Source: Apostichopus japonicus (lineage: Eukaryota; Echinodermata; Holothuroidea; Aspidochirotida; Stichopodidae). From it: a stretch of 64,000 bases of DNA. Location: contig NC_092576.1 in the NCBI RefSeq assembly GCF_037975245.1, positions 29,924,611-29,988,610 on the forward strand, read 5' to 3'. The position numbers and the translations under genes are program-made. Shown here piece after piece: positions 15,751-63,460 of this stretch. Within the stretch, counting starts at the first letter, position 1. Every line of letters starts with the position of its first letter. Under the pieces are notes generated by a model that was given only the letters and a program-made list of their open reading frames with translations, made no database searches and was not told the DNA's origin.

Positions 15751-16430
15751 ACACGATGTTGGATTGAAGCCATACATGGTACATATATGCACCATAGTGA
15801 GTAGAAGAACCCTATTGATTTTGGCTTTCATCTAATGAATAATAATGAAGTCACGGGGTCAAACCTAAATATTTTCCAATGCTTATAACTCTGCAACCGA
15901 GAGTAAGAATTTTATTGCATACTTGGTATTAATGTGTTGGTAGATAGTGGGTACATGGTAACATATGTTCAATTTGATAACTATTATGCATATTTATTAG
16001 GGGAGCGGTAAACACGGTAACTGAACAACTACAAGTTGGATTGAAATCATACTTGGTACATATATGCGTCATAGTGAGTAGATGAAACTTATTGATTTTG
16101 GTGCTAATCTCATGAATAATAATTAGGTCACAGGGTCAATTGTGAAAATCTCCAAATGCTTATAACTCCACAACAAAATGTCAGAATTAAGTGCAAAATG
16201 GTGCAGTATTAATGTGTTGCTAGATAGTGGGTACATGGTAATATATGTTCAAGTTGATATTATGCATATTTATTAGGAGGCTGGGCTTAAGTTTATTTGC
16301 ATGAAAATAGTTTGTAAACACGGTGACTGAACAACGACAAGTTGGATTGAAGTCATACTTGGTATGTTTATATGCGCCATAGTGAATAGAAGAGCCCTAT
16401 TAATTTTGGTGCTCATCTCATCTTTGTGTT
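15750..16430. repeat. Three tandem units of about 280-305 bp
   Basis: GTTGGATTGAA starts each unit at about 15758, 16034 and 16340. Shared words follow in order: CATAGTGA(G/A)TAGA, TTGATTTTGG, GGTCA, AATGCTTATAACTC, TAATGTGTTG, TAGATAGTGGGTACATGGTAA and TATGCATATTTATTAGG. The last unit is truncated. It is AT-rich and non-coding. Confidence 0.85.
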
Positions 16431-26229: not shown

Positions 26230-27215
26230 ATATAAGTAGGAAATATTTGTAAATGTAAAATATTACAGTATAAACAAATCAATGCGGTGTGTAGTCATGA
26301 ACTGAAAATGCCCTCCACCTCAAAACATACAAACAAAACATGGCCACAGTTAGTAAAGAAATAATCATTATTAATCCTCTAACTGAGAAGAGAGTGTGAT
26401 CGTACAATACCTACCAGAATGTTTGTCAATCTATTTGAACAATTTTTAAACAGCTTTGCTATCTGATTCATAACACTTTTTTTTATAGCTATAGATAGCA
26501 CGAACGTACATGTCTCTGCATGTTGGTGGGCGTATTTTACTTTTTCACTCCCTTGACTTGAGTGTTCTTTCTTGGGATGGACCCACCCATTAATCAATAG
26601 TGCCGTTTGGCCGTCACGTTTTGGATCCCGCCGGGCGGGTCACGTGAAAGGACACGTGTGACAAATGTTTTCAATTTTTTAAGACATTCGCATTTTTATC
26701 ACAACCCTCTATAGATATTTTGCTCGAATGCTCAGAATATGTTCAAAACATGTTATGATTTATTGCAAATATACTGGAGGGGGGGTCTATTCATTTCTGT
26801 CACGATTTTTTGATGCAAACCGATTTTTAGCCAAATTACGTAATTTTCTGATTCACCTTTGACCTTTGAGCCCCAGCCACTAAAAAAATCACAGTAACCC
26901 CTTTTTAGTGGTTTTCTACACAAACGCATGGCCTTAGCTACATTTCAATACCTAAAAGAATGTTGTAGGATGTAAGATGGCTGAGTACTAATTCAATGAT
27001 TATTTTGGTCCATATCGACCCAGAATGCGGAAAAGAGCAAACTGTTGTACTTTTCTTTTGTCGGAATAAACTAATTTCAATGAGTGATTGCGATTACTGT
27101 TATTTACCGGAGGTATCTAGAAAGGTAAGAAATTAATTCCAAAAATAGTATTTTGGTGTCATTTACGGCCATGGGAAAGCATGGTTATCATAGGGTCAAC
27201 CCCTGTGGAGGTTTT
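26230..27215. other. Non-coding, contains repeat-family end
   Basis: No gene was seen. At 26598-26651 the sequence CGTTTGGCCGT, ACGTTTTG, GATCCCGC and GGCGGGTCACGT matches, in inverted orientation, the end of a repeat at 63563-63618. The rest is AT-rich. Confidence 0.5.
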
Positions 27216-29992
27216 ACTATCTAACGCAACGTAGTGGCCAAGAACCTGAGGTATTTTAAGGGAGGGCCCGAAGAACATGAACTTATGTTTCACCATGCTA
27301 TAATTGCACCTATTAGGTGAATTGAGTGTACTTTTAATAGTAGGCTAGACTAGCGTAGGTTCTTATGACCAACTAGACCGGTTTCTGCTCTCAACCTTTA
27401 TAGGAGGAGCTTCATCAGTAGTAAGCCTTTGAATATTCTATATTCGGCATGAGCGTCTCGTTCTCAAAATGCATCTATTTTCTGTGCACGAGTTTTTATG
27501 GACTCAAAGTGCATCTATAAGAGCATCTAAAAGAGCTTCGTGTGAACCTTGAGAGTCAGCTGATTCTTCGTTAGTACGAAACCTTGAGTTAACAAGTAAA
27601 TCTTTGATATTTTGGGCCCTTTTGTAGGCAAGAATCGGTTCTTTTGGAAACAGTTTGGATAATCCCGCGTGTTGCGAAATTAAGTGCCAATGTTTCAAAA
27701 GTGCTTTTTTCAAATGCTTGGTTTTGGTATGGGTTCTATAGGTAAGCTTGAACACCAGTGGTGGTTCCTTTTGTTTAGGATTGGTAGTGAGGTAATGCCT
27801 TCGGTTTTCAAATTTTCTGCCTTTATTCGCTGTGGCAATTTCCTTTCTTATAGTTACGGAGTAACAGTTTCTCTGTGAACGCGTTCTTTTTCTGTAAGAA
27901 ATCAGTCTCGTTGTTACAGAGACGTGTGTATCGTAATATATCTCGTTTAATGAAGCCTTTAAAATTGTCAAGTGGGTGTGCAGAGTTTCTGTCGAGGTAT
28001 TGGAAGGTTTCCGTGGGTTTGGTGTGGACGTTAGTGTCTAATAACCCATTGGTTTCGAACCTTGTACTCTTGAAGATTTTCAAATCTAGGTATGTTACCA
28101 CTGTGTGTGATATTTATACCATAAACTTAAAGAAGCGGTGAATTTCATTCAACCTTTTTACTAGGTGTTCAAGTTCCTGATGTGTACCGTCGTAGAGCAA
28201 TAGAATGTCATCTCTATAGCGGAGCCATTTTAAGATTTTATTATCTGTCGGTAAAATGTGGTTTTCAAGTCTATGCATGACGATATCGCAGATTTCCGGA
28301 GAGGCTTGGCTACCCATAGCGCAACCGATCGTTTTTTTCCGTCTTTTCATAGACTTCTTGACATATATCTAATGCCTCCTCATGGGGAGTCATTAGATTA
28401 CATGGCGACGACATCGAGTGTAGCAAGTACTACCGTTTTTGGTAGCCGAGTGGCTTCCAAAATTTGCAGAATGTGATTTGTGTCTTTCACAGAAGTGCTT
28501 TGTTTTATTACAATAGGAAGCAAGAAATAGTCCACAAATTCCGATATTTTTTTCGGTCGGTGATCCGTTTCGACTTATTATCGGTCTACCGGCAAATTTT
28601 CAATTAGCCGGGGTGCTTTATGAATTTTTGCTAGCATATATATGACCGGTGTGCGGATCTTATGGCTATATGGTGAAAAGTACTCGAAGGTGCTTTTATC
28701 GATCACTTTTGCAGAGAACATTTCAATTACTGTTTCCTGGACTAAACTTTTAGTTTGAAACGTCATATCACTTTCTAACTTTTCGTAGTGGTGACTAGCT
28801 AATTGCCTTTCAATTTCGGCCTGATAGTCTGAGTGATTCATTATAGCAATGCCTCTACCTTTATCGAAGGGTTTGACAATAATAGAGCGGTCGTTTTTAA
28901 TTGCATTTAGTGCAAAGAGCTCCGCTTTATGCGTCTTGCTATTGGCGTTTCGGATAGTAACACGTGCCATTTCGGTTTGTGTTGCTTCCAAATAGTCCTC
29001 TAGGTTTTTACTAAAAGTCATGTTAGGTGACCATGTAGAGGGTACACGGAATTTGGTAATCCTTTTTTGCATTCTATTCTGCATGATGAAGCGGATTCTC
29101 ATTTTTCTTTTCAGGTCTATTAATGACTTGAGAAGATCACTTCGTTCAGGTTTTACTGGAGTTGCTATCAACTTCAGACCTTTTCCAAGCGTAACAAACT
29201 CTATATTGGACATGTTTCTGTCTGATAGGTTCTTTACGAACTTTTTTAGTGTTTCTGCTTCTTTCCGAAGATTTTGGTTTTTTGAGTGACTACGTATAGT
29301 CTGTAGCTCCCTGTTGGTGGTTCGGAATTTTTCGGAGCTTTTATTACCTTTCACTGATCGGACATATTTGCGTTTTTTAGATAACGATGAGAGAGGTAGA
29401 GAGAGAAAGTGCATTTTGCATGTTGGAGGAGAGGAAAGTAGCTCTTTCTGGAAAATTTGGTGGCCCTAAAAAGGCCCGTTTTTCTCGACCAAACTCATAC
29501 CTTTTATAAGGTTGCTTTCGATTATTGGAATTTGGTCGGCGTGACACTCTGGTCTCCTCTCTTTTCGCTGCCTTCTGGAGGATGGTCTTCAAAAGCCTGT
29601 GTGCCTCCGGAGCTTCCAATGTTGACTCTAAGTCCGTCTCTGCTCTAGATCTCTTTTCAAGAAATCTGTCCCGTTGCCTTTTAGCTTCGCGAGATAACTC
29701 GTCTCTCCAGATTCTGCGGAGGTTCCTGCCTGCTCGTTGGAGTACTTCATTCCAGGAATCAGTAAACTCCTCCGAGTGGGTTTCTCTGAACCTTGAGTTG
29801 GTGATAGGTAGCGTTTTTATCGCCGTCTATCCGGGATATCTCTTTAGTGAGAGTGATGAGCCTTGACTGGAGCTCCTTCAACGTATCTGCCTGGCTTTTG
29901 AACTTCTTGTAGCTTGATCCTGTTCCTTGACCTTCCTTGATCCTGTTCCTTGACTTTCTTGATCCTGTACCTTCACCTTCTTGTAGCTTCAT
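27216..29992 (-). mobile_element. Penelope-like retroelement, decayed
   Basis: A minus-strand element with the reverse transcriptase of Penelope-like elements in pieces at 29619-29377, 29414-28578, 28350-28114, 28101-27823 and 27971-27504. Recognisable parts in order: LGKGLKLIATPVKPE, IIVKPFDKGRGIAIMNHSDY, YMLAKIHKAPR, a motif-A remnant LATLDVVAM followed by a stop, GCAMGSQASPEICDIVMHRLE, LRYRDDILLL (the usual YxDD has an Arg), TYLDLKIFKSTRF and TFQYLDRNSAHP, then the C-terminal LLKHWHLISQ and AYKRAQNIKDLLVNS. No GIY-YIG nuclease is seen after the last motif, and the frame stops at 27504. The 3' non-coding tail to 27216 is shared with the truncated copy at 46351-46864. The N-terminal end is uncertain. 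Confidence 0.75.
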
Positions 29993-30010
29993 CCTCTTGC
30001 AGCTTCATCC
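29900..30010. repeat. Short degenerate tandem repeat
   Basis: CTTGATCCTGTTCCTTGAC and the related CTTGTAGCTTCATCCTCTTG units are repeated about six times. They lie at the presumed 5' end of the Penelope-like element. Confidence 0.75.
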
Positions 30011-30299
30011 TGTTGTCGTTCCTTTTGGTAGGAGTTCTTTGCCCACACGGTATGTGTTCTTCTGAGGAGAAGGATGAGTCTTTATTGACTGGTGAGGTAG
30101 GAATCTCAGGACAGGAAAATAAAGGAGTTTACCCCTGTTCGACCTCACAAGAGGTCCTACGGGGGGTAATATTTCACTTTTGTAGTATAGACAATTTTTT
30201 AATTTTTTTTTCTAGGGAAAGTTGTCTATTATTCAAACAGGGAGATGCTGAGATGTGAAGTATTGTTCGTTTAACATTGTTAAGAAGCCATAAATAAAC

Positions 30300-32730
30300 A
30301 GGAGGTCGGAACTGAGGAGCCAATTAGGTAGGGATCACTAAAGGGGGAGGAATTTCTAATTAAATGGGATTTAAAGACAGAGCGGTTTCTATTGTTTGCT
30401 TCGGAAGTGGTTGCTACTTAGTTGGAGTTTTTGAGTTGTACTTAGTGTACACCTGGAATTTGGGGGCTAGACCTACTTAGGAAATGGACTTTCTAAAGGG
30501 ATGAGGCTTTAGGTAAGAAGATTGAATACAAAGATGTGGTGGTTATTTCGGATTTCGGATATTAAATTCTACGAGTACGGTGAATAAGGATTTTTTGTTT
30601 CCTGCGAGGAGAACGTGAGAGGTAGCTATATATAAGAAGGGATTTTTAGGGCAAGTCGGTAAGCTGTGGTGTGGATTCTATTTAGATTTTGTTTACTGGA
30701 GTCTGAGATGGTAAGCAGAGAGATGCCTCCGTAACTGAGAATTGGTCTTATTTTGGAATTGTAGATTTGGATAGTGGTTTTCGCAGGGAAATTATACTTA
30801 TTGTGAGAGGATTTGGATGTATTTAAGGTGGGAGCAGCAGCGGCCTGCAGTTCTAATACAGTGTAGGATAGTTTATTATCAAAAGTGATACCAAGGAAGG
30901 TTGCATTGGGAGAGGCAGTGATTGGGGTGTTTAAACAGGTTAATTTTGGAAATATGGTTAGGGAATTTTAGAGTTTTTAAAGGAGAAATTGACTAAGTTA
31001 GATTTTGAGGGGTTTATTTTTATTCGCCACATTGAGCACCAGTTTTCGAGATGTGAATATTTTTACTGGTGCTCCAAATGGCTATATCGTCAGCGTACTG
31101 ACTATAGTTGCAATTTGAGAGAGGGGATGTTTAGATCAATTACAAACAGGGTGTAGAGGGGACTGAGAACAGCGCCCTGAGGGGTGCCTGCACGAAGTGG
31201 AATAGGGTTTGAATGTTGGTTTTTGTTGTAAATTTGTGTAGCGATCACGAAGGAAAGAGGAAAGAAGTCTGATTTAATTGGAGGGAAGATTATAGTTTAG
31301 TAGCTTAATCCTTATGCCAAGTTTTGTCAAACGCTTTTTCGGCATCAAGAAAGAGGGCAGTGGTATAATGTTTTTTATGAAGCCGATTCGGATTTCTTCG
31401 GAAAGACGAAAAGTTTGGTTTAATGTAGATTTGTGTGTACGGAAACCTGATTGAGATGGGGAGAAATGATCATTTAGTTCTAGGTCAGTTCTAGTGCGGT
31501 TATCTATTATTGTTTCAAAAATTTTGCCTAAGGCTGGGAGGAGGCTAATCGGGCGGTAGTTTTGGATTTTGTTGCGGTCTTTATTTGGTTTAGGTATTAC
31601 AATAATTTTTGCGTATTTACACGGGGTTGGGAAATAGCCCAGTGGTAAATCGTTAAAAAGAGGGGATAATAAGGGGTTGGGGTAAAGCTGGTTGTATTTC
31701 GGATAATTGCTTGGTCTATTTCTTGTTTGAAACGTTTATCGTAAGGGGGGCCATCAAAGATATTAAAAATATTTAAAAGTGTGATTCAATTAGCTTAATT
31801 TCATCTTGAGTATTTCTAATCAGGTTACCTGCACCATCTCTAATGCCTGGTCTGAATTACCAGTGTTTGAGGTTTAAGTGGGATTTATGATATTTTTGAT
31901 TTTCTTCCAAAAGTGTTTTGGGTTTTTCTCATTAATGATCGATTCGCATTTGTTTTGGACTCGTTTTTGATAGTCCGCCAAAATTTGTCTATTTATTTGT
32001 TTTTTAAGTTGGTTAATTTGGGTTTTTAGAGTTGGATCTCGAGAGATCATGTAGGTTCTGCGAAGGCGGCGTCTGAGTTTAATTAGTGTAAGAATATTCC
32101 TATTAAGTTTTCGATTTCGGTTTTGTTTTAACGGACAATGAATTGAAGATATGTTGGGCAATGCTGTCACAGTAATTGTCAATATAATTTAGCTCGTTGT
32201 TGTGGTTTTGGTAAATGGTATTATATGTTCCTCTTTAAATGTTGTCCAGTCTGTTTTATTGTAGTTATATGTTAAATCGTTATTTTGAATGCGATTTAGG
32301 TTTAAGACTAGCTCAAAGAGGAGTGGAAAAAGGTCACTAATTAGGTTATCTTCTAGGATTTGAGTCCAATGAGTTTTAGTTGCGAGGTGGTTTGAGGTTA
32401 TGGCGTAGTCCAGTATTATTGTTTATTGGGTTTATCCTAGTTTTGGTATCTTGGTTTATTATTGTTTAGTTGTGTTTATCACACATTTCTAAGAGGGATA
32501 TGCCTTTTTCAGTTATTTTGGAGCTGCCAAAAATGATGTGGTGGGCGTTTAGATCTCCTACAAGAATTGTTTTTTGGTTTATATCAGTTGATATGGGCTC
32601 ATTTGGGCGACTATAATAGCTAATGATGTGGAGAGGTTTATTGTCTCTTTCGAGTACGATTTCAATTATTTGATTATTTCTTTGGGTTGGGTTAGAGAGG
32701 AGAGTGGCATCGAGATTATTTTTGACAGCT
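30300..32730 (-). pseudogene. LINE ORF2, endonuclease 3' half and RT
   Basis: Just inside the boundary the minus frame reads LIAVKNNLDATLLSNPTQ, then an endonuclease motif ILVGDLNAHHIIFG with the catalytic GDxN. 32182-31874 encodes a basic helical linker (LIKLRRRLRRTYMISRDP) typical of Jockey/I-type LINEs. The RT is decayed but readable across shifted frames: SQSGFRTHKST (about 31450), ALFLDAEKAFDKTWH (about 31330), AGTPQGAVLSP (about 31170) and the active-site YADD in QYADDIAIW (about 31095). The 600 bp toward 30300 hold the degenerate C-terminus. Multiple frameshifts and stops mean it is inactive. Confidence 0.75.
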
Positions 32731-32735
32731 ATAAG

Positions 32736-32851
32736 TGTTATAATATGGACTACCGCCCTCGAGCACGGGGAGTCGGTGAGAACACAAAAGACAGATCACA
32801 ACCAATAAAGCAGAATCAATTCAATCTTTGTCAATCCGTGCCATTATTACA
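32736..32851 (+). repeat. 5' LTR of the Gypsy element
   Basis: It starts TG and ends CA, has a TTATAATA box near its start and an AATAAA polyadenylation signal near position 80, and is preceded by ATAAG. Confidence 0.92.
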
Positions 32852-32865
32852 TGGTGTCAGAAGTG
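32852..32865 (+). other. Primer-binding site, tRNA-Leu type
   Basis: TGGTGTCAGAAGTG directly follows the LTR. It is complementary to the 3' end of a common animal tRNA-Leu (…CACTTCTGACACCA), the primer used by SURL-like elements. Confidence 0.8.
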
Positions 32866-32880
32866 AAAATTCTTTGTGAC

Positions 32881-33821
32881 AATGCAAGGCCTGAAGCCAC
32901 CCGAAGGACTATCCGTAGAAGGAAATCTTTCGGAATCATGGAGACAAAGGAAACAAATATTCCAACTATATATGACAGCTTCAGGTATGGACACACAAAC
33001 GCCTGCGGTGCAGTATAGTACACTATTGCACGTTATTGGAGATGACGGGCTCGATGTGTATAACTCGTTCCAGTTTAGCGAAACTGAGAAAAGCGATGAT
33101 TTGAAAACAATCTTGCAAAAGTTTGAGGAACATTTCACACCGAAAAGGAATGTGACCTATGAAAGGCACATGTTTAACGGGTGAGTCATTTGAACAGTTT
33201 TTAACAGATCTTAGAAACAAAGCAAAGACGTGCGAGTTCGGTTCATTATATGACATGATTCGCGACAGAATTTTAGTTGGTATTATTGACAATTCACTAC
33301 GGGAAAGGCTACTACGCAACAGTGATTTAACCCTGCAAACGGCAATTAACATTTGTAAGGTAAGCAAAGTACAAAGTACTTTGTACAGCAAGGATTCAAA
33401 TGTAGGACTAACAGTAGATGCACTAAGGTCTAAGCCATTTGTAAACAAGACTAGTTCGATGAGACCAAGACCTCAAAACCAGAATTACAACGAATGTGGA
33501 AAGTGTGGCTATGAACACCACCCAAATAAGTGTCCAGCTGAAGGACAAATTTGCCACAAATGTAGCAAGCCAAATCACTTTGCTCGTAAGTGTCGTACCA
33601 GAGAAAACAAAACAGACAGGACAGGAAGTCAATTCAATAAGAAGTCACAAGATCAGGTAAATACCGTTGAAGAAAACAACGCCTCATCAGAGTCAAAAGT
33701 ATACTATATATTTGTGGATACAGTTACTACAAGAGATAACGAAAGAAAAGTCAAAAGTCAAATTAGTTTCGTACTTCGGAAAACGTGTAAAACCATTGGG
33801 AAAGTCAACATTATTGTGTGA
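32881..33821 (+). pseudogene. Gypsy gag with zinc knuckles
   Basis: ATG at about 32881 opens MQGLKPPEGLSVEGNLSESW, a capsid-like start. The frame continues to VTYERHMFN and then shifts at about 33180. The second frame has GESFEQFLTDLRNKAKTCEF and the zinc knuckles CGKCGYEHHPNKC and CHKCSKPNHFARKC (33495-33590). The next part runs into a remnant ending before the protease catalytic site. A frameshift and deletions make it non-functional. Confidence 0.8.
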
Positions 33822-34886
33822 ACACAAGGACAAATTATACGACGTTGAATTTCAAGTTGTGAGAGAACGTAAGACCACTTCTGGGACTACAGACAAGTGT
33901 ACGCCTGGGACTGATCAAAAGAGGTTCATGCAGTCAATACAAGCTCTAATATTCAAGAAGAATATGCAGATGTCTTCAAAGGTCTGGGTTGCCTGCCTGG
34001 TAAGCACCACATACAGATTAAGGCAGATTCAAAGCCAGTAGTACATATGCACCACGACGAGTACCGATAGCAATCCGAGAGAGAGTTCGAGATGAACTGA
34101 GTCAAATGGAGAAATTAGGAGTAATCGTCAAAGAAGAAAGACCTAGCGAATGGGTGAACAGCATGGTTACGGTTGTGAAACCAGGACGTGATCGTATCAG
34201 AATTTGTTTACATCCAAAAGACCTCAACGACGTAATTGAACGGGAATACTTTCCCATGAAAACCATAGATGAAGTAATTTCACGGCTCCCGAATGCCAAT
34301 GTGTTTTGAACACTTGATGCGAATTGTGGTTTTTGGCAGCTTGCACTCGATGATGAAAGTTCGCGTCTTTGCACTTTTAACAGTCCATTTGGCCGCTACA
34401 GATACACCAGACTCCCATTTGGCATCAAATCCGCTCCAGAGATATTTCAACGTGTCATGTCGCAGATGTTTCAGGGACTAGATGGCGTTGAAGTTATTAT
34501 GGACGACATACTAGTGTGGGGGGATAAACCGTGAGCAACACGATCTACGTTTAAAGACAGTACTTGATAGAGTGAAAGAGAGAAATTTGAAACTCAATCA
34601 GGCCAAGTGTAAGTTCAATGTTAAGGAAGTAACATACATTGGTCACAAGTTAACAGAAAAGGGTTTAAAACCAGATCCTATCAAAGTAGATGCAGTTGTA
34701 AACATGGAAAAACCTACAAACAAAACAGAATTGAAACAATTCTTGGGTATCATCAATTACTTAGCGAAGTTTGTGAAAACAATTTCTGAATGTACAGCCC
34801 CGTTCAGAAAATTGTTGGAAAAAGAAATTCAGTGGCATTGGTCACATGATCAGGATAAGTCCTTTAATGAGTTGAAAAGACTGATT
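33760..34886 (+). pseudogene. Gypsy protease remnant and reverse transcriptase
   Basis: The protease region lacks the DTG active-site segment: gag's FVDTVTTRDNERKVK runs straight into a later strand, LLCEHKDKLYDVEFQVV, so an internal deletion removed it. The RT then reads MEKLGVIVKEERPSEWVNSM, LHPKDLND, a TGA at 34307 in place of a Ser codon, TLDANCGFWQL, FNSPFGRYRYTRLPFG and VIMDDILVWG (active-site MDD, normally Y.DD). A one-base shift in a G6 run (about 34520) precedes EQHDLRLKTVLDRV and the thumb FLGIINYLAKFV. The gene is interrupted at 34887 by the Academ-like insertion and resumes at 42309. Confidence 0.8.
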
Positions 34887-34900
34887 AGGCCATGGGCTCA
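34887..34900 (+). repeat. Left TIR of Academ-like element
   Basis: TAGGCCATGGGCTC, preceded by the GAT duplication. The inverted partner is at 42295-42308. Confidence 0.75.
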
Positions 34901-35209
34901 AGCCATCTAAAACACTCTTTCGTTCACATGGCTGCTGGGACTACTCAACTTCAGTTTAATAAATTCAAACCTAATTTTCTTAATCTATTTCTGTTTGTTC
35001 TTTTTTAAAATATTTGCACATTTGAGAGAAATTAAGTAAAAACCATTTAAATTTGCTAACAGACAATTTGTATGATTGGTTAATAAACTGAGCAAATTAT
35101 CAGATTGACCAATCAGAGCCCTCTATGTATGAGTCACAATCCTAGTGTTGTGATTGCGCAACATATGCACTGTACAATGCATTATGCACTTACACTGTGT
35201 TACATTAAC

Positions 35210-38200
35210 ATGGAGTGTTGTATTCCTGTATGCTGTCGGAAAACATGTAATATTATACCCTTTTCTGAGGCTAGCTTTGTGAAATTTAAGGATTGTTGTA
35301 TGAGATGGAAGTCCATTTCAAGTTCATATGGAGAAATTGCTGCTAATTGTTGGTCAGAACTGAACCTGATAAACTGTTCTTCACCTACTGATATCACTCG
35401 TACTCGTACTAGTCGTAGTGTAGGCTATCATAGGGAGTGTTACCAACGATTTACTGACATATCAAAGCTCTCTAAAGCAGAACAAAGAAGAGATTTGTCA
35501 AGTATTCAATCTGGTGAGTACATTTATATATATCATCTTTGAACAGGGCATGAATTTGATCCATAAAAGTAACAAAGTTGTCCGTGTACCACTTCCACTA
35601 CAAAATTAGGCCTATGGGGCTTTGAAACGACTTCAGGATCCCCCCAAAAAAATTGGAATTACAGTCTACCTGTCTGTCCCATAACCTGGTATTCTCTGCT
35701 CTTCCCAGGGTCTTCTCTGCCCCACCCCTTCCCACCAGGGTTTCATCTAGAGATGGATGATATAGGCAGGCATTTGAAATTTGTGGCCGTGCAATTAGGT
35801 CGATGTAATTTTATGACGAAGGCGTAAATGCGAGCTCGTAGGGCTTGCGTTTTGACTTGGGGTCCGATAAAATGTTATTAACAAATATACGCATTTTGCT
35901 GTTTTGAAGTGTATTTATAGCATGGCTTTGATATAATCACACAAGCCTAGGTTGTTATTTTGGCCGTGATTTTCGAAAAATGACCCATGCAAAAGACAGC
36001 TGCATGGTTCACTAAATGAACCTACGCACCCCCCCCCCCCCTCACACACGCACACACAAAAATAGATCAAAGTAATATTGAAGTTTTGTATCAGAATTTC
36101 TATATGCTGTGAAGTCAATTTATAATGTCGTCCAACTTGTCCCCATTCGCACAAACATGTCTGCATCCACTGCATTAACTGACTGTCAATTTTTCTTTTC
36201 TTCTTTTCACACAGATAATGCAAGTGATATTCCAGATTATAAAATTACCGAACCACCAGAACCTAAAAAAGCCAGATTGCGATCCAGAGAAGCCACAACT
36301 TCTAAATCGGACAGACCCCACATTTTTCCAGCCAAATGCTTGATTTGCAATGCTGATGGATGGACACGTGACAGGCATTCTGGTGCAAGAAAACGGGAAC
36401 CCCTCACAAAATGTGAAACAATTGAAGCCGGCCAACTTAGAAAAGCTGCAGAACTTACATTCAATGAAGCACTTCTACTGAAGATAAGAGACAGAGATCT
36501 AGTTGCAGCAGAAGCACAATACCATAAGTCATGTTACAAGGACTCAACTAGGTTTTTAACAAAAGCAAAGAAAGATGAAGCTGAAAAAGTTGACACAACG
36601 TATGGAAAAGCTTTTGAGGAGTTTTGCAAAGAATACATAGATAATCAAATTTTTAAAAAACATGAAATTTACAGAATGAATAAACTGCGTCTCCATTTCA
36701 TCAAGATGGTAAAGAAAGTTCAGGATGTAGATGCTTCGAGTTACAGGACATTCAAGTTGAAAAAACGACTACAACGGTGCTATCCTCATTTGCAATTTCT
36801 CAAGCCAAACAAACGTAATGACAGTGAGATAGTTTTGTCAAGATTGCTTGAAGCAAAAGATATAGCCGAAGAAGCTCTAACTTATGAGGATGAGAATTTA
36901 TCATTGAGTGAGCCAAGTCAAGATGACACAACTGATGATGAATCAACACAAACCAACGAACCATCTAAAGGTACTAAGCTAAGTGAAATTTACTTCACAG
37001 CCCGAAAATTAAGAGAGTCTATACAGTCAATAGAGATGACTACACCATGGCCACCTGGTGGACAAGATCTCAATCTAGATAAAACAAGAGTGATCATACC
37101 CATAAGCATTTACAACTTCCTGGCATGCCAGGAAGTTGTAATCATCTAATGATCCAGAGGAAGAAAGACTTGTAACAGTTTCCGAAAGTGATGACCAGAG
37201 TTGTGTCCATTGCACAAGACATCATTTACCATGCCTCATCAGGAAGAAAGCAGATGCCAAAACACCTTGCACTTGGTATGACTGTTAGGCATATGACAGG
37301 ATCTGCAAAGTTGATTGGAATTCTGAATGGATTTGGACATGCAGTGTCTCATTCTGCTGTTTTGGAACATGACACAGCAATAGCTGAGGAGCAGACAAAG
37401 AAAGGACCCTTAAACCTTCCCCCATTCATTCAAGAAGGGAGGTTTACAACACTTGTTTGGGACAATAATGACTTTGGGGAGGAAACTATAACTGGAAAGG
37501 GGACAACCCACAACACAAATGGGATAGTGATCCAAAGAGAATCCCTCCAAGTCAGAGACTCTTCAACCCCACAAGCAGGAACCAAGAAAACAAAGAAAAG
37601 GTCCATTGATGCACCCCCCAGAAACATTGCTACTTGCCTTAATGTTCAACGGAAAGGCCCAGTGGCATTTGCAAACGATATTTCCCTGACGGAGAATGTG
37701 GAGATGCAGTCAAAAGCTCACCAGAAAGACACTGCATTTGCACTCATCAGGCAAACACAATCAGAAGCAAGAAGTGCTCATCCTCCAAGTTGGACAGGGT
37801 TTAACACACTCCTGTGTAAGACGATTCCCCCCAAGTCCCTCATTGGATACTTACCAGTGATTGATGCCTCCCCTACTGAAATGGACACAGTGTATACAAT
37901 ATTACTTCGGAGCTTAGAGATAGCTAACAAGTTAGGTCTGGAACAAATTGTTGTTGTGTTCGATCAGGCAATATATGCAAAAGCCCAGGAACTTCGATGG
38001 CATAATGAGGTATTTATGAACCGATTAATTATCCGAATGGGTGCTTTTCATACTTCGATGTGCTTCATGGCATGCATTGGAAAAAGGTTTCAGGATAGTG
38101 GTTTAGATGATGTTGCTATTGAGTCAGAAGTGGTTGCACAGGGCTCCTTGAACGGTATCATGGGTGGATCTCACTACAACAGAAGCGTGAGATTTCACAA

Positions 38201-40706
38201 GTTAATGTATGAAGCTCTTCATCGACTGAGATTCCAGGCATACCTAAAAAGCCGTCTGAAACAGACCTTTCTGCTGCAAATGTTGCCCTTGATAAGCTCA
38301 GAAGATCATTTCCAGCAACTTTTGAAGAAGCTTTGTCAGATCCCTCAGTTCAAGGTCTATTGCAAAACTACCTGCAATTTGTGAAAACTAGCTCAACTTC
38401 ACCGACAGTCCAATATTGGAACTCGTACTTGGAAATGGTGCAAGTTCTCTTACTGTTTCTCCGTGCTTCTCGTGAAGGAGATTGGAATCTTCACCTGTCG
38501 TCCCTACGGTCCATGATGCCATGGTTTATGGCCTATGACAGAGTAAACTATTCAAGATACTCAACAGTGTACTGGCTTGAAATGCAGCATATTACCAAAA
38601 GCAATCCTACCTTGGCACAGCATTTTCAAGATGGCGAGTTTTCTGTCCAGAGACAACAAAACCATGGTTTTTCAGGAGTTCCATGTGACATGACAATCGA
38701 ACAAACCATGAACAGAGATTCCAAAACAAAGGGTGGTCTGATTGGAATCACAACCAACAAGGCTGCTGTTCATCGTTGGATTGCATCATTCCATGTAAGA
38801 GCTGAAATAGCAGCAGAATGTCAAGAAATGGCTGGAAAAGGTGACAAGTCAAGGAAGAGGAAAGATTTAGATATCACCCGTAATGTCAAAGAGGAGCAGG
38901 ATATTCAAGCATTAGTGACAGCAATCGAATCGATGACTAATCCATTTGAATTAGATCAAGAAGAATTAGTTCATCTCACATCAGGCATCGTGGCACCAGA
39001 TCATGTTTCAAAAGATTTGCTACACGCTAATGATAAAGGTGAAGAAGCTATCAAATCTTTCATACAAAGAAGGTTACAAACCAATGAAGTAGATTTCTTT
39101 GATCCCATTCCGGCTCAGAAGCTAAAGACTTTCACATCAATTGGAGAGAAGCAGAAAGTGAAAGTGAAAGGAAAAGAGATAGAGTTGAAATCTAATAGAA
39201 ATTTATTTGCAAGACTGCTTGTTTGTGGAAAAGTGAGAAACATCAGTATGGAGACCATTTTACAGTACAGCCTTGGTCCATTGCCTTTATCCCTCTCAAC
39301 ACAGTGGAACTTTGGTCAAACATCCAAAAGCAAAGTTGATGCACCACTTAGAGTCTTTGGTAGTTCCAGCGCCTTACATAACTAACATTCCAAAGAGCTG
39401 CATCTGGATTGTTGATGGCATGGCAATAATCCAACAGTTTCAGGCTCGAGACTTACCACATACGTTTGGAGAATTTTCAGAGCTTGTTATGAAGGAGTTG
39501 GTAAAACTTGCCAAGGATACAGACCACACAGAGGTTCACTTTGTCACAGATCAATATCCACAAGAATCTATCAAAAATGCAGAAAGACAGAAAAGAGCAA
39601 GCACAAGTGGTGTCCAGCGTTACAAAATACATGGACCACAGATGAAAATGCCACAGCAATTCAAGAAATTCATGAGCTCTGGACCAAACAAAGAAGAACT
39701 CGTTTCTTTCATGTACAATGACTGGCAGAGAGAGTCACGTACTACATTGTTGGATGGTGTAACAATATACATGTCCCATGGAGATGAATGTCATTCTCTT
39801 GCTGTAGTCAATGGACAAATAAAAGTACAGGAGCAGCCAGAATTACACTGCAATCATGAGGAGGCTGACACACGAATGCTGTTGCATTGTCGGTTTGCTA
39901 CAAAATCTGCAGACAGTATTGTGATTAGAAGTCCGGACACAGATGTTTTTGTTCTTGGTGTGGCATTTGCTAAGAAAATCTCAGATACTGCTGACTTGTT
40001 TTTTTACACTGGTCAAAAAAGGAAAAGAATTGTTAACTTGTCAGGAGTAAGTAATTGGTTGGGTGACAAGAGGGATGCTTTGTCGGTTTTCATAGTTTCA
40101 CCGGTTGTGATACTGTAAGTTCTTTTCACGGGAAAGGGAAAGTGAAGGTTTGGAAGTTGATGGAGGAAGAAAACGCCATTGAATTGTTTCAACTTATTGG
40201 CTCTACTTTAACACTGTCTGCAGATCTAGTGGAAGGAATCGAGAAGTTTACCTGTGCAATGTATGGTTACAAGGAATGTTTGAAGGTTAATGAAGCGAGG
40301 TACAGGCATTTCACAACCCGAGCAGACAAGTCAGACTCAGCCATGCCTCCTAATTTGGACTGTTTGAAGAAGCACCTTTTGAGAGCTAATTATCAGGCTG
40401 CAATATGGAAACGAAAGTTTGGAATGTAAACCAGGTATTCCTAATCCCGTAGGTCATGGCTGGAGAATAGAAGAGGAATGTCTGACAATTGACTGGATGA
40501 GTATGGCACCGGCACCAGAGGAGGTATTGGAACTTACCTATTGTGGCTGCAAAAAATCTCGTTGTAGTAAATCTAAATGCTCATGTGCTAAGAACAATCT
40601 TCCCTGCACTGAAGTCTGTAAATGTGTCAATTGTGAAAACAACATTGAACTAAATGAGGAGTGTGATGTTGAATACAACAGTGATCATGAAGATGAACCA
40701 TGGTGA
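35210..40706 (+). pseudogene. Academ-like transposase-nuclease-CXC protein (broken)
   Basis: Exon 1, 35210-35513 (ATG at 35210, donor GTGAGT), joins in phase to an exon from 36215 (acceptor TTCTTTTCACACAG). Parts in order: a Cys-rich N-terminus (CCIPVCCRKTC) and a second zinc segment CLICNADGWTRDRHSG to YHKSCY (36330-36530); an acidic linker; the core with MPKHLALGMTVRHMTGSAKL, WDNNDFGEETITGKGTTHN (37460), VVVFDQAIYAKAQEL (37955) and ESEVVAQGSLNGIMGGSHYN (38125), which I read as candidate D, D, E; NYSRYSTVYWLEM and GFSGVPCDMTIEQTMNRD. Then a FEN1/XPG-like nuclease with IVDGMAIIQQF (39410), HEEADTRMLLH, SPDTDVFVLG, and the helix-turn FHSFTGCDTVSSFHGKGK (40086-40142). Last is a tesmin-like CXC motif CGCKKSRCSKSKCSCAKNN (40541-40640). 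Frameshifts at about 37197, 38255, 39305, 40083 and 40415, plus a palindrome at 37111, inactivate it. Confidence 0.7.
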
Positions 40707-42294
40707 ACAGTTCAGGGTCTTCTACAATGTATGCATAACTTCAGGGCAAGGAAGATACTGTAACTTGTTTCCCAAATTAAAGATAACCAGAAGTTGGCTC
40801 AATATTTTATGTCATTCACTCAAAAAAAGAATCATTGTTCCCTTCTGTACCTTTTTTTTAAATTGAATCATTTGAAATTTGAATTGTGCTACTAAAACAG
40901 GCCTAGGAATATCAATTATTTTAATTCAAAACTCAAAATTCAAAACAATTCAATGGTGTCTCTTCTTACATCAACTTTCAAACAGGTGTTTTCATCATTG
41001 ATAGCAGGCTCATTGTGCCTTATTGGTTTTAATGAAATGTATTCAAGGTTAATTAGATTATCATTTTAATGACAAACAACAAGACAACTTGTTAGGTTCT
41101 GTAACAATATTGAACTTAATACTTTGCATGGTGGATATACCATGTGAATCACACTTTCATTTTTGAATGTTCAATTTTTAAACAAGATTCAATGTGTAAT
41201 ATCGATGTAATTTTTACCATTTAGAAAATGAATACTGCTGGTAGCAGTCCAATGTAATGTGAAATAAGGTGATATTGGTGTTCATCACGGTAGCCCCTAC
41301 CAGACTGTACAGTATACTTACAACGGTCTACCAGTAACATTGAACCTTCCATACAGTACAGTAGCTTGTTATGTACATGACATTGGAGTTGTTATCCTCT
41401 GGTTTTATGTATTGTTAGTAATGTATTTATGGTTATTGTTAAGAAGACATTGACAGAGTGCAAGGAGCAACACTTGAAAGTTAAGAATTTGAATTGTTAC
41501 TTATATCAGATGGCTTGATAATGTAGCAACGCCCCATTTTTATTTTTACTTCTGATTATGAACAAATGTATTAGGGAGCTGGATGGTAAAGATCCAGTGT
41601 GAGGGGTGAAGTGCTTGTAACCTCTCCCCTCTTTTTGTTCCATATAATTAAGTAAATTTAAATACAGTATAAGAATTAGATGCCACGAACTAAGATTCAA
41701 GAAGTTATTATAACGAACATTAAGTAAACGCATCAGTTTATGCTGCTTTATGGAACAAAAGTCGAAGTGTAAAGAATTATGGAGCTGGATGGTAAAGATC
41801 CAGTATGAGGGTGAAGTGCTAGTAACCTCTCCCCTCTTGCTTTTGCATGTACTTTATTGAATAGTGTAAGAATTTGATGCAACATATTAAGATATTAGAA
41901 GTTACCAAAGTAAAATTTTCACCCAAGATAAAACTAATGCTTCAGTTTATGCTGCTTTATGCAAAAATGTAAAGAATGTACATAAATAGAGTAGATATGA
42001 AATAAAATTTATCTGAAGTAAAGAGACAATTGACTTATGAAGTATTTCTGTACAGCAAAGCTTTTATTAGCTCAATATTGTCAAAAGGTGGTCGTAACAT
42101 TGTGGTTGTTTCTGAGATAGTGGCTCCAAAAAGTAACAAATTTCAATCTTAGGTTTTCGCTTCATGTGCAACTTTGAGCAAAAAGAACATGCATTATCTT
42201 TTTCTACACACCGTAGACTACCAAAAACACCTGGTTCCGTTTAGTCCCTCAGTGGGTGCAACGAAACTTGATTTTTATTTACATTTGCACTAGT
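40707..42294. other. 3' non-coding part of the Academ-like element
   Basis: AT-rich with no ORF of note. It contains the 206-bp tandem duplication (41575-41965) and AATAAA-like signals near 42001. Confidence 0.6.
41575..41965. repeat. 206-bp tandem duplication
   Basis: GGAGCTGGATGGTAAAGATC starts each unit, at about 41575 and 41781. GTGAAGTGCT, GTAACCTCTCCCCTCTT and CAGTTTATGCTGCTTTATG follow in order in both. Confidence 0.85.
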
Positions 42295-42308
42295 TGGCCC
42301 GTGGCCTA
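42295..42308 (-). repeat. Right TIR of Academ-like element
   Basis: TGGCCCGTGGCCTA on the plus strand, followed by GAT. Confidence 0.75.
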
Positions 42309-43663
42309 GATGACTGAAGCTCCAGTCTTGCACTATTATGATGTTAACAAACCAGTGATTATTAGTGTCGATAGCTCCAGTAGAGGTGTTGGTGCAGTAA
42401 TTCTTCAGGATAACCATCCAATAGCATTTGCTTCAAAAGCATTTAGTGAGTCACAGCAGCGTTATGCTCAAATTGAGAAAGAACTGGCAGCAATTATTTT
42501 TGGTTGCCAGAAGTTTCATCAATATGTATTTGGGCGCGAATTTGATGTTGAAACAGACCACAAACCACTGGAGCCAATCCTGAAGAAACCACAAGCACAA
42601 GCACCCCCTCGACTACAGCGTATGCTGTTAAAACTGCAAAAGTATGCAATGAATGTGAAATACAAAAAATGTTTGTAGCAGATGCACTGAGCAGAAATTT
42701 TCAAGATCACAGTGAAAATGATATTGATGATTCAACTGAAATTTCAGTATGTATGGTAGATATGTTGCCTATGAGTGATGAGCGTGTGAAACAGTTTCAA
42801 GATAAAACTAAGGCTAATCCATTAATGCAAATGTTGAAAAATGTAATCTTACAAGGATGGCCTGAATGTAGAGATAACCTAGATAGGGAGTTTCTGCCGT
42901 ATTGGAATTTTAGAAGTGATCTTTTTCTTGAAGATGATTTAATTTTGAAGTCACATAAACTTGTCGTACCGAGATGTCTAGGGAAGTTCATGGTCAACAA
43001 GGCTCATGAAGGCCACCAAGGCATAGAAAAATCAAAAAGACTTGCAAGAGATTTAATGTTTTGGCGAGGAATGGCTAGTCATATTACAGATGCTGTGAAC
43101 ACATGTGAAACCTGTAATATGTTCAACAATCAAAACTGTAAAAAGCCCATGATAAACCATGAACTGCCTTCAAGACCTTGGGAAGGGTAGGCACTGACTT
43201 GTTTACATTTGATTCAGAAAACTATCTGATAATAGTGGATTATTATTCGAATTACTTTGAAGTGAACAAATTATCTAGTCTTAAAAGCAATGCCATTATC
43301 AGTTTGTGCAAGCAGCAATTTAGTAGGCATGGCATTCCCTCAGTCGTAATTTCAGACAATGGTCCTCAATATTCTTCGTCGGAGTTTAAGAAGTTTAGCA
43401 AAGAGTATAACTTCAAGCATGTCACATCGTCTCCTCATTACCCACAGTCTAATGGGAAAGCTGAAAAGGCTGTGCAAATAGCAAAGAATATCCTAAAGAA
43501 ATCCAAAGTTTCGGAGCAAGATGCTTTCCTGGCACTTCTCAATTCTAGAAATTCACCCCTAGAGCATGGTGATTCACCTGTTCAGTTGTTGATTGAAGGC
43601 CAACACGCACCACACTACCTACAACTTACAAATTGCTTAGGCCCAGGTTACCAAAGAATGTAA
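42309..43663 (+). pseudogene. Gypsy RNase H and integrase
   Basis: After the insertion the frame continues TEAPVLHYYDVNKPVIISVD, then RNase H motifs GVGAVILQDN, FSESQQRYAQIEKELAAI and VETDHKPLEPI (42340-42580). A shift at about 42665 leads to FVADALSR. The integrase has the HHCC zinc motif (KAHEGHQG, CETCNMF; 43000-43120), a shift at about 43187, and the catalytic core: D in GTDLFTFD, D in VVISDNGPQYSS, and E in SNGKAEKAV. The frame ends at 43663 and a decayed tail runs to the polypurine tract. Confidence 0.82.
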
Positions 43664-44107
43664 AATCAAAGATTCAAAAGAAATGTGAAAATTTCTATAA
43701 CAGACAAGCACGACCCTTGAAACAAATTAATGTTGGGGACACAGATTTAAGAATGATCAGTTTTGGCAAAAGGCAGTGGTTGTAGCAAAGTCTCCACAGC
43801 CTCGTTCATATGTTATTCAGTCTGGACAGCAAACGTTCCGTCGTAACAGGAAACACTTAATACAAACACCTGAACCGCCACCATCACCTAGACAAGAAGA
43901 TACACAAGACACCACACCAACACAACACACAGACAAACAACACACAGACAACTGATACAGACACATCTCAAGTTCAGATGTCAGCCAGAGGAAGACGCAT
44001 TAAAACAAGAAGGGAACAAGATTTTTTGTATTACTAAGGTTTTCTTTTATTGACATTTTGTTTCTCTGTTAAAGATAATCATTAAAAGGTAAATTGTTTT
44101 TTTGTTT

Positions 44108-44118
44108 GGAAAGGGAGA
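44108..44118 (+). other. Polypurine tract
   Basis: GGAAAGGGAGA lies immediately before the 3' LTR. It is the expected plus-strand primer. Confidence 0.8.
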
Positions 44119-44235
44119 TGTTATAATATGGACTACCCGCCCTCAAGCACGGGGAGTCGGTGAGAACACAAAAGACAGATCACAACCAATAAAGCAGAAT
44201 CAATTCAATCTTTGTCAATCCGTGCCATTATTACA
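44119..44235 (+). repeat. 3' LTR of the Gypsy element
   Basis: It is identical to the 5' LTR except for an extra C in ACTACCCGCC and A for G in CAAGCACGG. It is followed by the duplication ATAAG and then by LINE sequence. Confidence 0.92.
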
Positions 44236-44240
44236 ATAAG

Positions 44241-44600
44241 TACTCCTCCTCTAGAGCGGGAGATATCGTTTCTAAAAATTTGGTAACCTGGGAGGGATGT
44301 TCAGGTGTGATTTTGAATTTAGTTTAGTTTCATTTAGCGAAATGACATCCGGGGAGTGGTTGGTAATTAAACTTAGTAGGAGATTCAGTTTTGGAAGGAT
44401 ACTGTTTATCGAAGGAGGGAGGTTGATTGTCATTTTGGTGATTGGGGAGGGCTAAATATTGAAGGTTGATAGAGACGTTCCATAATTAAAGATTTTGGGA
44501 TATTTAAGTTGAGGTGTTTTAATGCTAACACGGTGGAATAGATGGCAAGGTCTTCAGATTTAATATTGATGTTGGCTTTTTGAAGGTATATTGAAGTAAT
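44241..44600 (-). pseudogene. LINE ORF2, N-terminal endonuclease half
   Basis: The minus frame encodes LPKLNLLLSLITNHSPDVISLNETKL, the APE-type endonuclease motif with the catalytic Glu, and after a small shift RNDISRSRGGVLI. The continuation of the same strand (LIAVKNN) lies at 32730 on the far side of the Gypsy insertion. Confidence 0.75.
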
Positions 44601-44680
44601 TCAATTACAAATGTTGCAATATTTAGTATTTCTTCGGTGGCGATTTTTTTGGGTAATTTCGATTTTAGGGGCAGCTTTGG

Positions 44681-45577
44681 TTACATTTGCGTAGGTTCTC
44701 TGTACTTGTTGTTTGTTAATTTCTTCTGTTTTGGCTTCTTTGGATTTTGGGCAGCCTTTCTATAGGGTGGCATGAGTCCCGAACAGTTTGCGCATTTCGT
44801 ATTCTCTTTTTGTTCTGGACAGTCTTTGACCCGGTGGTTTTCGCCAAATCTTAGGCATCTAGTTTGGTTCTTGCAGCTGTGGTGAGTATGCCCAAGGGCT
44901 GGCATTTGAAGCATTGGGTGATTGGGGGGGGGGGGTCGTTATATTCCTCGGTTTTGTGTTTCGAGTATCCTAGGTATAGGCCATGTTTGATAAGTGTTTG
45001 TTGTTCTTTTCCTTCAAATGTGATTTTTACATTCCAGGTAGGGTTATTTGTGGCTCCGCTGATTAGTCTTTTTGTCTGGATTGGTGAATATTCTTGCTCT
45101 TTTAATTCCTTGTTCGATGTCTTTAATTTGGATTTCAGGGTTAATGCCACAGGCAACTACTGAGAAGTTTCTTTGTCTTGTTTTTTGGGGGGATTCTTGG
45201 TTTCGGGTTGCCTAGTTTAGTTTTTTTAGTCCAAGGTTGGAGGAGGATATTTGCAGATTTAGGGTCATGGGGGTGATTAGGATGTCGTTACTGCGAAGAC
45301 GGTTTATGTTTGATATCATGGCATTTGGCTTCTCTTCATTGATCAGTTTAGCTAGTGTTAATGGGTTATTTGATATTTCTGGGAGGATTCCTGAGACTAT
45401 GATTGATTGGGCGGATTTTTTGGTGGCTGTCTTGGAGTTTGGTGATGGGTTTACCTGAACGGAATTAGGGCGCTGTCTTTTCCTGCTATTTTGAACGGGG
45501 ATCCAGTCATTTATATCGAAGTCAAAGAGGTTAAGGTTGTCATCAAGGGGGTTAAAGGTGGGTTTAGGGGTTGCCAT
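44681..45577 (-). pseudogene. LINE ORF1, gag-like with CCHC knuckles
   Basis: ATG at 45577 opens MATPKPTFNPLDDNLNLFDF. Three overlapping frames (45577-45212, 45156-44851, 44914-44681) hold a basic N-terminus, an RNA-binding-like middle (NPTWNVKITFEGKEQQTLIKHGL) and two zinc knuckles (CFKCQPLGHTHHSC, CLRFGENHRVKDC) plus a third CANC start. The gag-like ORF1 of Jockey/I-type LINEs has this order. One frameshift falls near a C/G homopolymer at 44929-44940, encoding a Pro run. Confidence 0.75.
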
Positions 45578-45660
45578 AATGGCAAAACAGCCCCTCCCTA
45601 CTGGATCTAAATGGGTTCCTAAACAATGAAAAGTTGAGCAAAACTTCACTTACCTAAGGC

Positions 45661-46350
45661 GGCGGACGGAAAAATAAAAACTCCTTATGATGAGGCAGCA
45701 CTTATGATTTGAGATTGGCTTCGTAGCACTGTAATGGTAGCAAAGGACGCGTATTGGAAAAAAGTGGCGGGTAAGTCACAGAGTGAAGGCTCATGGGACG
45801 GTGTATATTAGTGTTGACGTGAACGTAACCATGACAACCATGTCAGCTGAATCCCAGGAATCAGTGAGTCATGACTGAATATGCCTTTCGACAGAAAACC
45901 CTTGAGCTTAAGTCCATTTTAACGGACGTTGTTCAGTTGGAACCCCTTTGTTTGCCTTTACGGACGTAAAATGAGCAGCTGTGAACCATTGTTATTTTGG
46001 TCAGCTGATCGGTTTGGGGTAGCTCTTTTGTTATAGACTTAGGTTCTGGAGTCAGTGAGGTCAAACAGTGACGGCTTGTGATTGGCCCAAATTCTGTTGT
46101 AGAAGCCTTTTTATCATAGGCTACAACGTGGTGACGCATACACACTCTTATGGTGTAATTTATTAGGTTCTTTGGCGATTAAAATTTTTTGTCTCGCTCT
46201 AGTGAGACGATGGAATATTCAACGTATTTTCCATCCAAGTTTAACGTTAGAGATTCCTCGAAAGAATTCTCAGTGGTATGCAAACCTACGTCTCGATATT
46301 CCGAAGAACAGAGAGACAAATGAAATGAAATGGGGGTGTAGGCGGTTTTA
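45661..46350. other. Non-coding flank between LINE and Penelope copy
   Basis: No supported gene. A short minus ORF at 45933-46145 has no known motif. Confidence 0.4.
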
Positions 46351-46864
46351 CACTATCTAACGCAACGTAGTGGCCCAGAACCTGAAGTATTTTTAAGGGA
46401 GGGCCCGAAGAACATGTACTTATAGCATGCTCCTCATGGTGAAACATATTAGGTGAATTTAGTGTAGTTTTAATAGTAGCAAAGACTAGCGTAGGTTCTT
46501 ATGACGAACTAGACCGGTTTCTGCTCTCAACTTTTATACGAGGAGCTTCAACAGTAGTAAGCCTTTGAATATTTTCTATTCGGCACGAGTTTTTATGGAC
46601 TCATAGTGCATCTATAAAAGCATCTAAAAGAGCTTCGTGTGAACCTTGAGAGTCAGCTGATTCTTCGTTAGTACGAAACCTTCAGTTAGCAAGTAAATCT
46701 TTGATATTTTGGGCCCTTTTGTAGGCAAGAATCGGTTCCTTTGGAAACAGTTGGGATAATTCCGCGTGTTGCGAAATTAAGTGCCAATGTTTCAAAAGTG
46801 CTTTTTTTTTCAAATGCGTGGTTTTGATATGGGGTGTATAGGTAAGCTTGAACACCAGTGGTGG
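46351..46864 (-). mobile_element. 5'-truncated Penelope-like copy
   Basis: Nearly identical to 27216-27764 of the larger Penelope-like element. It starts at the same 3' end (CTATCTAACGCAACGTAGTGG) and stops abruptly after AACACCAGTGGTGG. A deletion of about 39 bp near 46585 lies between GCAYGAG words. Abrupt 5' truncation is usual for target-primed reverse transcription. Confidence 0.88.
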
Positions 46865-47860
46865 TGTTGTGGCTTCACATGTGCAAATGAATCCATGTGG
46901 GATGGTGTCATGGTATTAATTTAGTAAATTTATTTTCAACATAGTCAATGTACATACATGAAATGCAGTAAGAAAAAAAAACAATGTTAATAGTTAAAAC
47001 ACTTGTTCCTATATGATAACTTTGGTTTACTTTGAGTATTCTTCTTTGACAGCTAAGGTTATATTGAGATGCTACAGCTGTTTGATAATCCATTGGTTGG
47101 GGAAATGACAAGACGTATGAGATGGGGTCTAAAATATTGCTGACATTTTTCTAGGGGCTGCAGCCAATTTTGAGGGTTTGAATATTTTACATCGCCTTTT
47201 AACAAGTCGTATAAAGATGCCACGGCTGTTTTATAACCCAGTCGTAAGGCTCTGGCTAGGAACCTATCAGGAAATGAATGCGGTACACTGCCTTGTAAAT
47301 AATAAAGTTGAGGCTTGCCATCTAGTGAATCCCACAGTTTTACTCCTCAATTTGAATGTTAAATAAAGATTGATATGTAGAGTTAATATTACAATAATCA
47401 TGTCTTCACTTGAATACTCCTTTGACTGTTCGTTTCTCAGTTAAAGAAAATTAGTTCTTTATATTGTTTTTATTATTTTTAAATTGTTTTTGTTATTTTT
47501 GGGGTTTTATTTCCTTCCTTTTTCAATTATAAAATGTTTTACAAAATTTAAAAATACCTTTTTTTCCATACAGGATGAAAATTATGCCCAATGCTGTAAA
47601 TGGAATAAAATTACACAAGTGCAAGAATCGAAAATATGACAGCATTTGGACTCGCATTATCAAACGAGAGAGAGCTATAATGTGACAGTTAACACAAAAG
47701 TTTGCAGCAATCATTTAAAGTTTGGCCAACCATATGATGATGACCCCAAATCCAACATTATATCCTATTGGTTGACAGTTTGTTGCAACATAAGCGTTTT
47801 TCTATTCAACATATAGCACATTCCAATGAGTAAGTAAAAAGAAGAGGATCTGTCCATTGA
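46865..47860. other. Non-coding, with a recurring ~70-bp motif
   Basis: No clear gene. Segments at about 47040-47110 and 47195-47275 resemble each other and 50155-50235 (RAGATGYYAYRGC...AATCCATTGGTTGG/AACCCAGTCGTAAGG/AAACCAGTTGTATAG), so a small diverged repeat family may be present. Confidence 0.35.
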
Positions 47861-61094: not shown

Positions 61095-61518
61095 GACCTG
61101 CGGAATATTCCTAATTCCGCCAGAAACCAGTATAATAGTATATTCCGCAAAAAAATAGCCGGAACAAGCCTCCTTTCCGTTGTTCAGCGGAATCCACTCA
61201 ATTCCTCGGGGTGGGCGGAATAACCTTCCTTTCCGTTGACCGGAATTGCCCTCTGTTCCGCTGTTAGGCGGAATACCGTCAATTCCGCGGGTAGGCGGAA
61301 TAGCCCCTCGTTCCGCTGTTTGGCATAATAACCCTCTGTCCCGCTGTAAGGCGGAATACCGTCAATTCCGCGGGTAGGCGGAATAGCCCTTCGTTCCGCT
61401 GTTAGGCGTAATAACCCTCTGTCCCGCTGTAAGGCGGAATACCATCAATTCCGCGGGTAGGCGGAATAGCCCTGTGTTCCGCTGTTAGGCGAATTACCGA
61501 CAATTCCGCGGGTATGGG
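61095..61518. repeat. Minisatellite, GGCGGAATA-type units
   Basis: Units such as AATTCCGCGGGTAGGCGGAA and TAGCCCTTCGTTCCGCTGTTAGGCG repeat. Higher-order copies of about 83 bp (61276, 61359, 61453) share AATTCCGCGGGTAGGCGGAATAGCCC. TTCCGC and GCGGAA alternate, giving many short inverted pairs. Confidence 0.9.
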
Positions 61519-63081: not shown

Positions 63082-63436
63082 ATCACCGAAAGCAGTATCA
63101 GCAATGCTGTCTCCAAAGTTATCAGTATCACTTTCGTCGTCCGAATTTATCTTGAAATACACTCCAAAACGTCCGATAATAATTCCGAAACTAGTGAATG
63201 TTTTGCTCTTACGACTGCCTATTCACTGTTGGGAGTAGTATCGCGAATTTGACCATGCTCCGTAATGCAATCTGCTTAAGTTAGGACTTGGCATATAATT
63301 TGCCGATTTCATATGGATTTATGGTCAGGTTCGGCGTTATAATAGCTTCTTATACCATCTACTATTCGCTGACGCGATATCTAGTGCCTAGTGTCAACCA
63401 ATCGCAAGCCACATTGCAATATTTCGGGTGTTTACA

Positions 63437-63460
63437 TGAAAGCCACGATCGTGGCTTTCA
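63437..63460. repeat. Perfect 24-bp palindrome
   Basis: The half-site TGAAAGCCACGA is followed directly by its reverse complement, with no spacer. It lies in otherwise ordinary sequence between two copies of the repeat family. Confidence 0.95.

Follow-up and report, generated by a model that had tools for sequence, protein, structure and literature searches.

A probable AcademX-type transposon with an EXO1/FEN1-type nuclease, nested in a Gypsy-like element of Apostichopus japonicus

We analyzed a stretch of 64,000 nucleotides from the sea cucumber Apostichopus japonicus (NCBI RefSeq assembly GCF_037975245.1, contig NC_092576.1, positions 29,924,611 to 29,988,610 of the forward strand), referred to as the window. 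At window positions 34886-42308 it holds a transposon block of 7423 bp, flanked by GAT on each side. The block is very probably (about 0.87) a copy, mobile until recently but now dead, of an autonomous cut-and-paste transposon in the AcademX lineage of the Academ superfamily. Elements of its kind have moved in the past: they share their ends, stand between fixed 3-bp duplications and include shortened derivatives which themselves inserted.

Ends and genomic copies of the element

The length of 7423 bp follows from the terminal inverted repeats (TIRs) at 34886-34897 and 42297-42308, with GAT directly outside both. An earlier sequence-only reading of this DNA had delimited the block as 34887..42308 (7422 bp); its right end was correct, while the left start was one base late. 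The duplicated GAT and the inverted ends that it described are both seen at the borders, where the following features were assigned (TSD, target-site duplication):

34883..34885, no strand: left TSD, GAT
34886..34897, + strand: left TIR, TAGGCCATGGGC
34918..34931, + strand: left subterminal box, TTTCGTTCACATGG, element positions 33-46
42259..42266, - strand: right subterminal TTTCGTTG, position 43 from the right end
42297..42308, - strand: right TIR, TAGGCCACGGGC
42309..42311, no strand: right TSD, GAT

The left box at positions 33-46 is a candidate transposase-binding site. The two TIRs are the only exact matches of the end sequence within the window. With two mismatches allowed, the window holds three matches compared to a shuffle mean of 3.49, which is about the shuffle level, so that the window by itself proves little. 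Given this control, a 3-bp repeat at a single locus could be chance, as it would have to be if the block were an ordinary host gene or duplicated segment, placed in a retrotransposon by repair or retroposition, with coincidental ends and GAT. This explanation is refuted by the copies, namely by an exact 3-bp TSD in 19 of 19 pairs and by two multi-copy families, A and B, which leaves it a negligible probability.

These copies were obtained from the 671.6 Mb assembly, in which the end pattern TAGGCCAYGGGC gave 67 matches compared to 16 for a reversed control. From the 67 matches, 19 facing pairs lying 3.4-8.0 kb apart, the window copy included, were chosen by position alone. The sequence-only reading had proposed to examine ends and TSDs in other copies; there the ends are common, and every one of the 19 pairs is flanked by an exact duplication that is 3 bp long and in no case reaches 4 bp, the chance of a matching triplet being 1 in 64 per pair. 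Two pairs (L016 and L017) have identical flanks and thus the set represents 18 independent insertions. The duplicated triplets vary (GAT, ATC, GTC, CAG, TCA, CAA, TTG, GTT, CCA, ATA, TTA, TAG, GGT and ATT). The excess over the control matches, together with the TSD in every pair, rules out chance as the origin of the ends.

While 38 of the 67 matches make up the pairs, the 29 left over were all inspected, nine of them across 9.9 kb, 18 across 301 bases and two across 4.6 and 8.1 kb. Six (L036, L037, L038, L043, L051, L055) belong to families A or B as solo ends; the other 23, a number near the control level, showed no blastn similarity to either family. At L034 (C3:2661587), TAGGCCATGGGCGTCA and TGACGCCCATGACGTA occur about 0.8 kb apart and are unrelated to families A and B; they are perhaps another inverted-end element. 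At L008, L029, L035, L047 and L052 the 12-mer stands in the near-constant context accaac/TAGGCCATGGGCGCTG (with ACTG at L053 and L054), L008 and L035 being the same place. Because this context is near-constant, the 12-mer at these sites seems to belong to a different repeat.

Family A has three members, the window copy, L025 and L010; the last is short, and its right-hand end sequence diverges beyond the TIR. Among the 19 right ends, the right subterminal TTTCGTTG occurs only in the window copy and L010. Between the window copy and L025, 46 of 4284 aligned coding positions and 26 of 1473 aligned non-coding positions are different, with many gaps besides; about 100 bp of the right subterminal part is missing from L025, which has kept its TSD. 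Family B accounts for 16 of the 19 copies. One of these, L023 (7.2 kb), possesses all coding parts, frame-broken and by pieces 50-61% identical to A. In the remaining 15, which comprise 13 copies of 3.7-4.2 kb and L024 and L026 with extra DNA, the N-terminal coding piece is the only coding part found. At their left ends, A and B have the 12 bp in common, and TTTYGTTC is present at position 33 in 19 of 19 copies. A tree of 39 nuclease-side proteins places A and B as sisters (support 100/99). A database protein of Apostichopus japonicus, P0017, shares 98% identity with L023 over 269 amino acids and 88% over 425.

All of the B derivatives (L009, L011-L022, L024, L026) have retained the N-terminal coding part. 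Most have a stop at the same place, just past the end of the similarity to L023, and L011 and L020 have no stop before that end. The product is possibly repressor-like, or else a relic.

A predicted four-part protein with a nuclease and a CXC motif

The coding region consists of six open stretches from 36082 to 40706, five of which overlap in turn in differing frames. With the likely first exon, the whole comprises about 1600 codons and is predicted to be one gene that encodes, from two exons, a single protein of about 1600 amino acids. The sequence-only reading of one gene with four parts had the order of the parts right, but coding in this copy is split into six open stretches in different frames. 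The parts are:

35210..35513, + strand: putative first exon, cysteine/histidine-rich (CCIPVCC ... YHRECYQRF), within the open reading frame 35087-35542; splicing predicted
35514..36214, + strand: putative phase-1 GT-AG intron of 701 bp (GTGAGT ... CACACAG); predicted, donor counted by hand
36215..37149, + strand: N-terminal coding segment with C-x2-C ... H-x3-C motifs (36334-36363, 36520-36543)
37176..38384, + strand: RNase H-like core of the putative transposase, first part; first aspartate (D1) in VWDNNDF (37455-37475), second (D2) in VFDQAIY (37956-37976)
38213..39385, + strand: core, second part, in another frame in the window copy; helical region, third acid (E) in IEQTMNRD (38696-38719)
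39237..40118, + strand: EXO1/FEN1-type nuclease, first part; acids in WIVDGMA (39405), VTDQY (39543), HEEADTR (39855) and SPDTDVF (39930)
40067..40429, + strand: nuclease, second part, with the helix-turn HSFTGCD motif (40091-40111)
40383..40706, + strand: C-terminal tesmin/LIN54-like CXC motif, cysteines 40542-40634, and stop

The nuclease is the most secure part. On the close copy L025, both the fold and the active-site acids of the EXO1/FEN1/XPG family could be demonstrated, with EXO1 the closest, which strongly bears out the FEN1-type assignment made before. A single-sequence search of the PDB with the nuclease piece gave weak unrelated matches only. The predicted CXC motif was likewise recovered, by PF03638 (E 3.4e-7) and by a match to the LIN54 profile. 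The N-terminal segment, which is the part present in the B derivatives, has the expected cysteine/histidine motifs; a zinc role would be read from the spacing of these residues alone.

For the core, the structural model displays RNase H topology, with D, D and E conserved at the places expected for that topology, although the structural match is only moderate and partly common to unrelated entries. The sequence-only reading had named two refuting outcomes, copies with different ends or without the 3-bp duplication and a core model without an RNase H fold, and neither was encountered. No significant match to the core was found by Foldseek, nor any by a profile search against PDB sequences. Its sole Pfam relation is DUF6589, with a best value of 8.8e-6 that is below Pfam's cut-off; in relatives, DUF6589 was recorded in four of nine proteins at E <= 0.5 and in four of 47 members at E <= 0.01, and the literature searched contained no paper on that term. 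That the fold of the nuclease stands on much firmer ground than that of the core would suit a scenario in which the core is no strand-transfer enzyme and does something else, the EXO1/FEN1-like nuclease cutting with or without a host enzyme. Opposed to this are the conserved D, D and E within the RNase H topology and the TIRs with a fixed 3-bp TSD, which are typical of DDE (aspartate-aspartate-glutamate) strand transfer. Enzymes of the FEN1 family are not known to join DNA, and we consider this scenario very unlikely.

Relatives of the protein are numerous. At E <= 1e-3, the core piece retrieved 560 among 3079 candidates and the C-terminal piece of L025 retrieved 304 among 4699. Among the matches listed (the best 120 of each), most are nameless and the named ones mostly uncharacterized or hypothetical; those named for the core, among its best 120 of 560, come from sea cucumbers, an acorn worm, cnidarians, a spider and fish. 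Thirteen of the relatives retrieved with the C-terminal piece were examined. The long ones (925-1007 amino acids) begin inside the core, span the nuclease and mostly reach the CXC motif; P0166, the only long one that reaches back past D1, stops before CXC, and P0216 is without CXC. As the protein search was limited to chains of up to about 1010 amino acids, no examined protein spans all parts, and the full order was put together from the overlap with N-terminal-plus-core relatives and from the DNA of the window copy, L025 and L023. In viral and prokaryote contigs, 27, 132 and 69 pattern matches were obtained, and tblastn confirmed no relative among them.

Neither of the frame breaks at 38.25 and 40.08 kb recurs in L025, and L023, a distant copy, has its breaks elsewhere. 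The window copy is therefore dead rather than programmed to shift frame; a programmed frameshift at the core joint was rejected on the intact joints of L025 and the different breaks in L023. A perfect palindrome of 32 bp, made of two 16-bp arms without a spacer (window 37110-37141), lies in the coding region beside a frame break, and direct repeat pieces about 205 bp apart occur near the 3' end of the element (window 41565-41967).

The Gypsy-like host element

The element that took the insertion is a Gypsy-like long terminal repeat retrotransposon:

27204..46865, + strand: Gypsy-like retrotransposon, repeat pair 27204-27765 / 46337-46865

Its repeat pair aligns in two pieces that are 87 and 95% identical. 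The insertion site is in the pol region, and fusing the flanks on one GAT leaves the pol frame uninterrupted, which bears out the earlier statement that the block sits inside a Gypsy codon run. The DNA transposon is young and jumped into an older retrotransposon. Between the Gypsy repeats, an open stretch at 28578-29465 (- strand) appears by eye to be a Penelope-type reverse transcriptase fragment and is perhaps a second nested insertion. Outside the element, the window contains tandem duplications and an inverted repeat pair (61169-61498, 15758-16277, 62697-63826).

Proposed mechanism and relation to known transposons

A fixed TSD together with TIRs is a hallmark of staggered strand transfer by a DDE enzyme. 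We propose that the protein acts through four parts, a cysteine/histidine region, an RNase H-fold D-D-E core in which the E is preceded by a long helical stretch, a 5' nuclease of the EXO1/FEN1 type and the CXC motif. The N-terminal part and CXC may bind the element ends, possibly at the box at 33-46. The core would free the element and join its 3' ends to the target with a stagger of 3 bp; repair of the gaps would then produce the 3-bp duplication. The nuclease could trim 5' flaps on the non-transferred strands at the gaps, or cut the second strand; host FEN1 is thought to remove 5' flaps after retroviral integration.

As a more speculative and rather doubtful extension, the lineage may have fused, in one polypeptide, a hAT/RAG-like strand-transfer core, a 5'-flap nuclease of the EXO1 class and a CXC reader resembling that of LIN54. 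The nuclease would then be a working step of transposition, and the more numerous B derivatives would be trans-repressors or just parasites. If true, the nuclease would replace host flap processing at the strand-transfer gaps. This would also offer a concrete reason why TSD length should depend on the accessory enzyme (3-4 bp with a nuclease, 9-10 bp with a helicase), a link suggested in PMC10045372.

From this locus and its sister family come the exact ends of the element, candidate catalytic residues and a 3-bp duplication at each of 18 independent sites. These allow the related, mostly uncharacterized database proteins to be annotated as belonging to transposons, and they open the function of a flap nuclease carried by a transposon to experiment.

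In AcademX elements the nuclease is of the XPG type. The AcademX lineage of the Academ superfamily reportedly goes back to work by Kapitonov and Jurka in 2010 and by Kojima in 2020. We know of no other superfamily that pairs a TSD of 3-4 bp with a nuclease, which counts against a separate DDE lineage outside Academ with 3-bp duplications and an independently acquired EXO1/FEN1-like nuclease. Such a lineage would fit a placement made by description rather than by comparison with a named Academ transposase, a core whose only Pfam relation is sub-threshold in few relatives, and literature listings in which no CXC-bearing transposase appeared. TSD length and nuclease, however, both match the AcademX description in PMC10045372, and we regard a separate lineage as unlikely.

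According to PMC10045372, AcademX duplications are 3 or 4 bp and those of AcademH 9 or 10 bp, and TSD length is proposed to go with the nuclease in AcademX and with the helicase in AcademH. The copies here have a TSD of 3 bp in 19 of 19 pairs, the element encodes an XPG/FEN1-type nuclease, and Pfam scans gave no helicase match; fitting AcademX and not AcademH, the element was filed as a probable AcademX member. The Academ label of the sequence-only reading is thereby supported, by likeness to a description rather than to a sequence. For membership judged by the ends, the Repbase rule calls for equal TSD length and a terminal match over positions 1-11.

Compared to AcademH, the core is presumably related, and the accessory enzyme and TSD differ as above. 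Hermes, a hAT transposase, gave a moderate fold match only; hAT elements make 8-bp duplications and carry no nuclease, in contrast to the 3 bp seen here. With the EXO1/FEN1/XPG family, identity is 12-16% in most comparisons, and the nuclease here sits within a transposon protein. With tesmin/LIN54, the PF03638 and LIN54 profile matches are common ground, one CXC copy being present here compared to two in LIN54. The CXC part and the exact ends thus probably add detail to the known AcademX kind and do not constitute a new kind of system.
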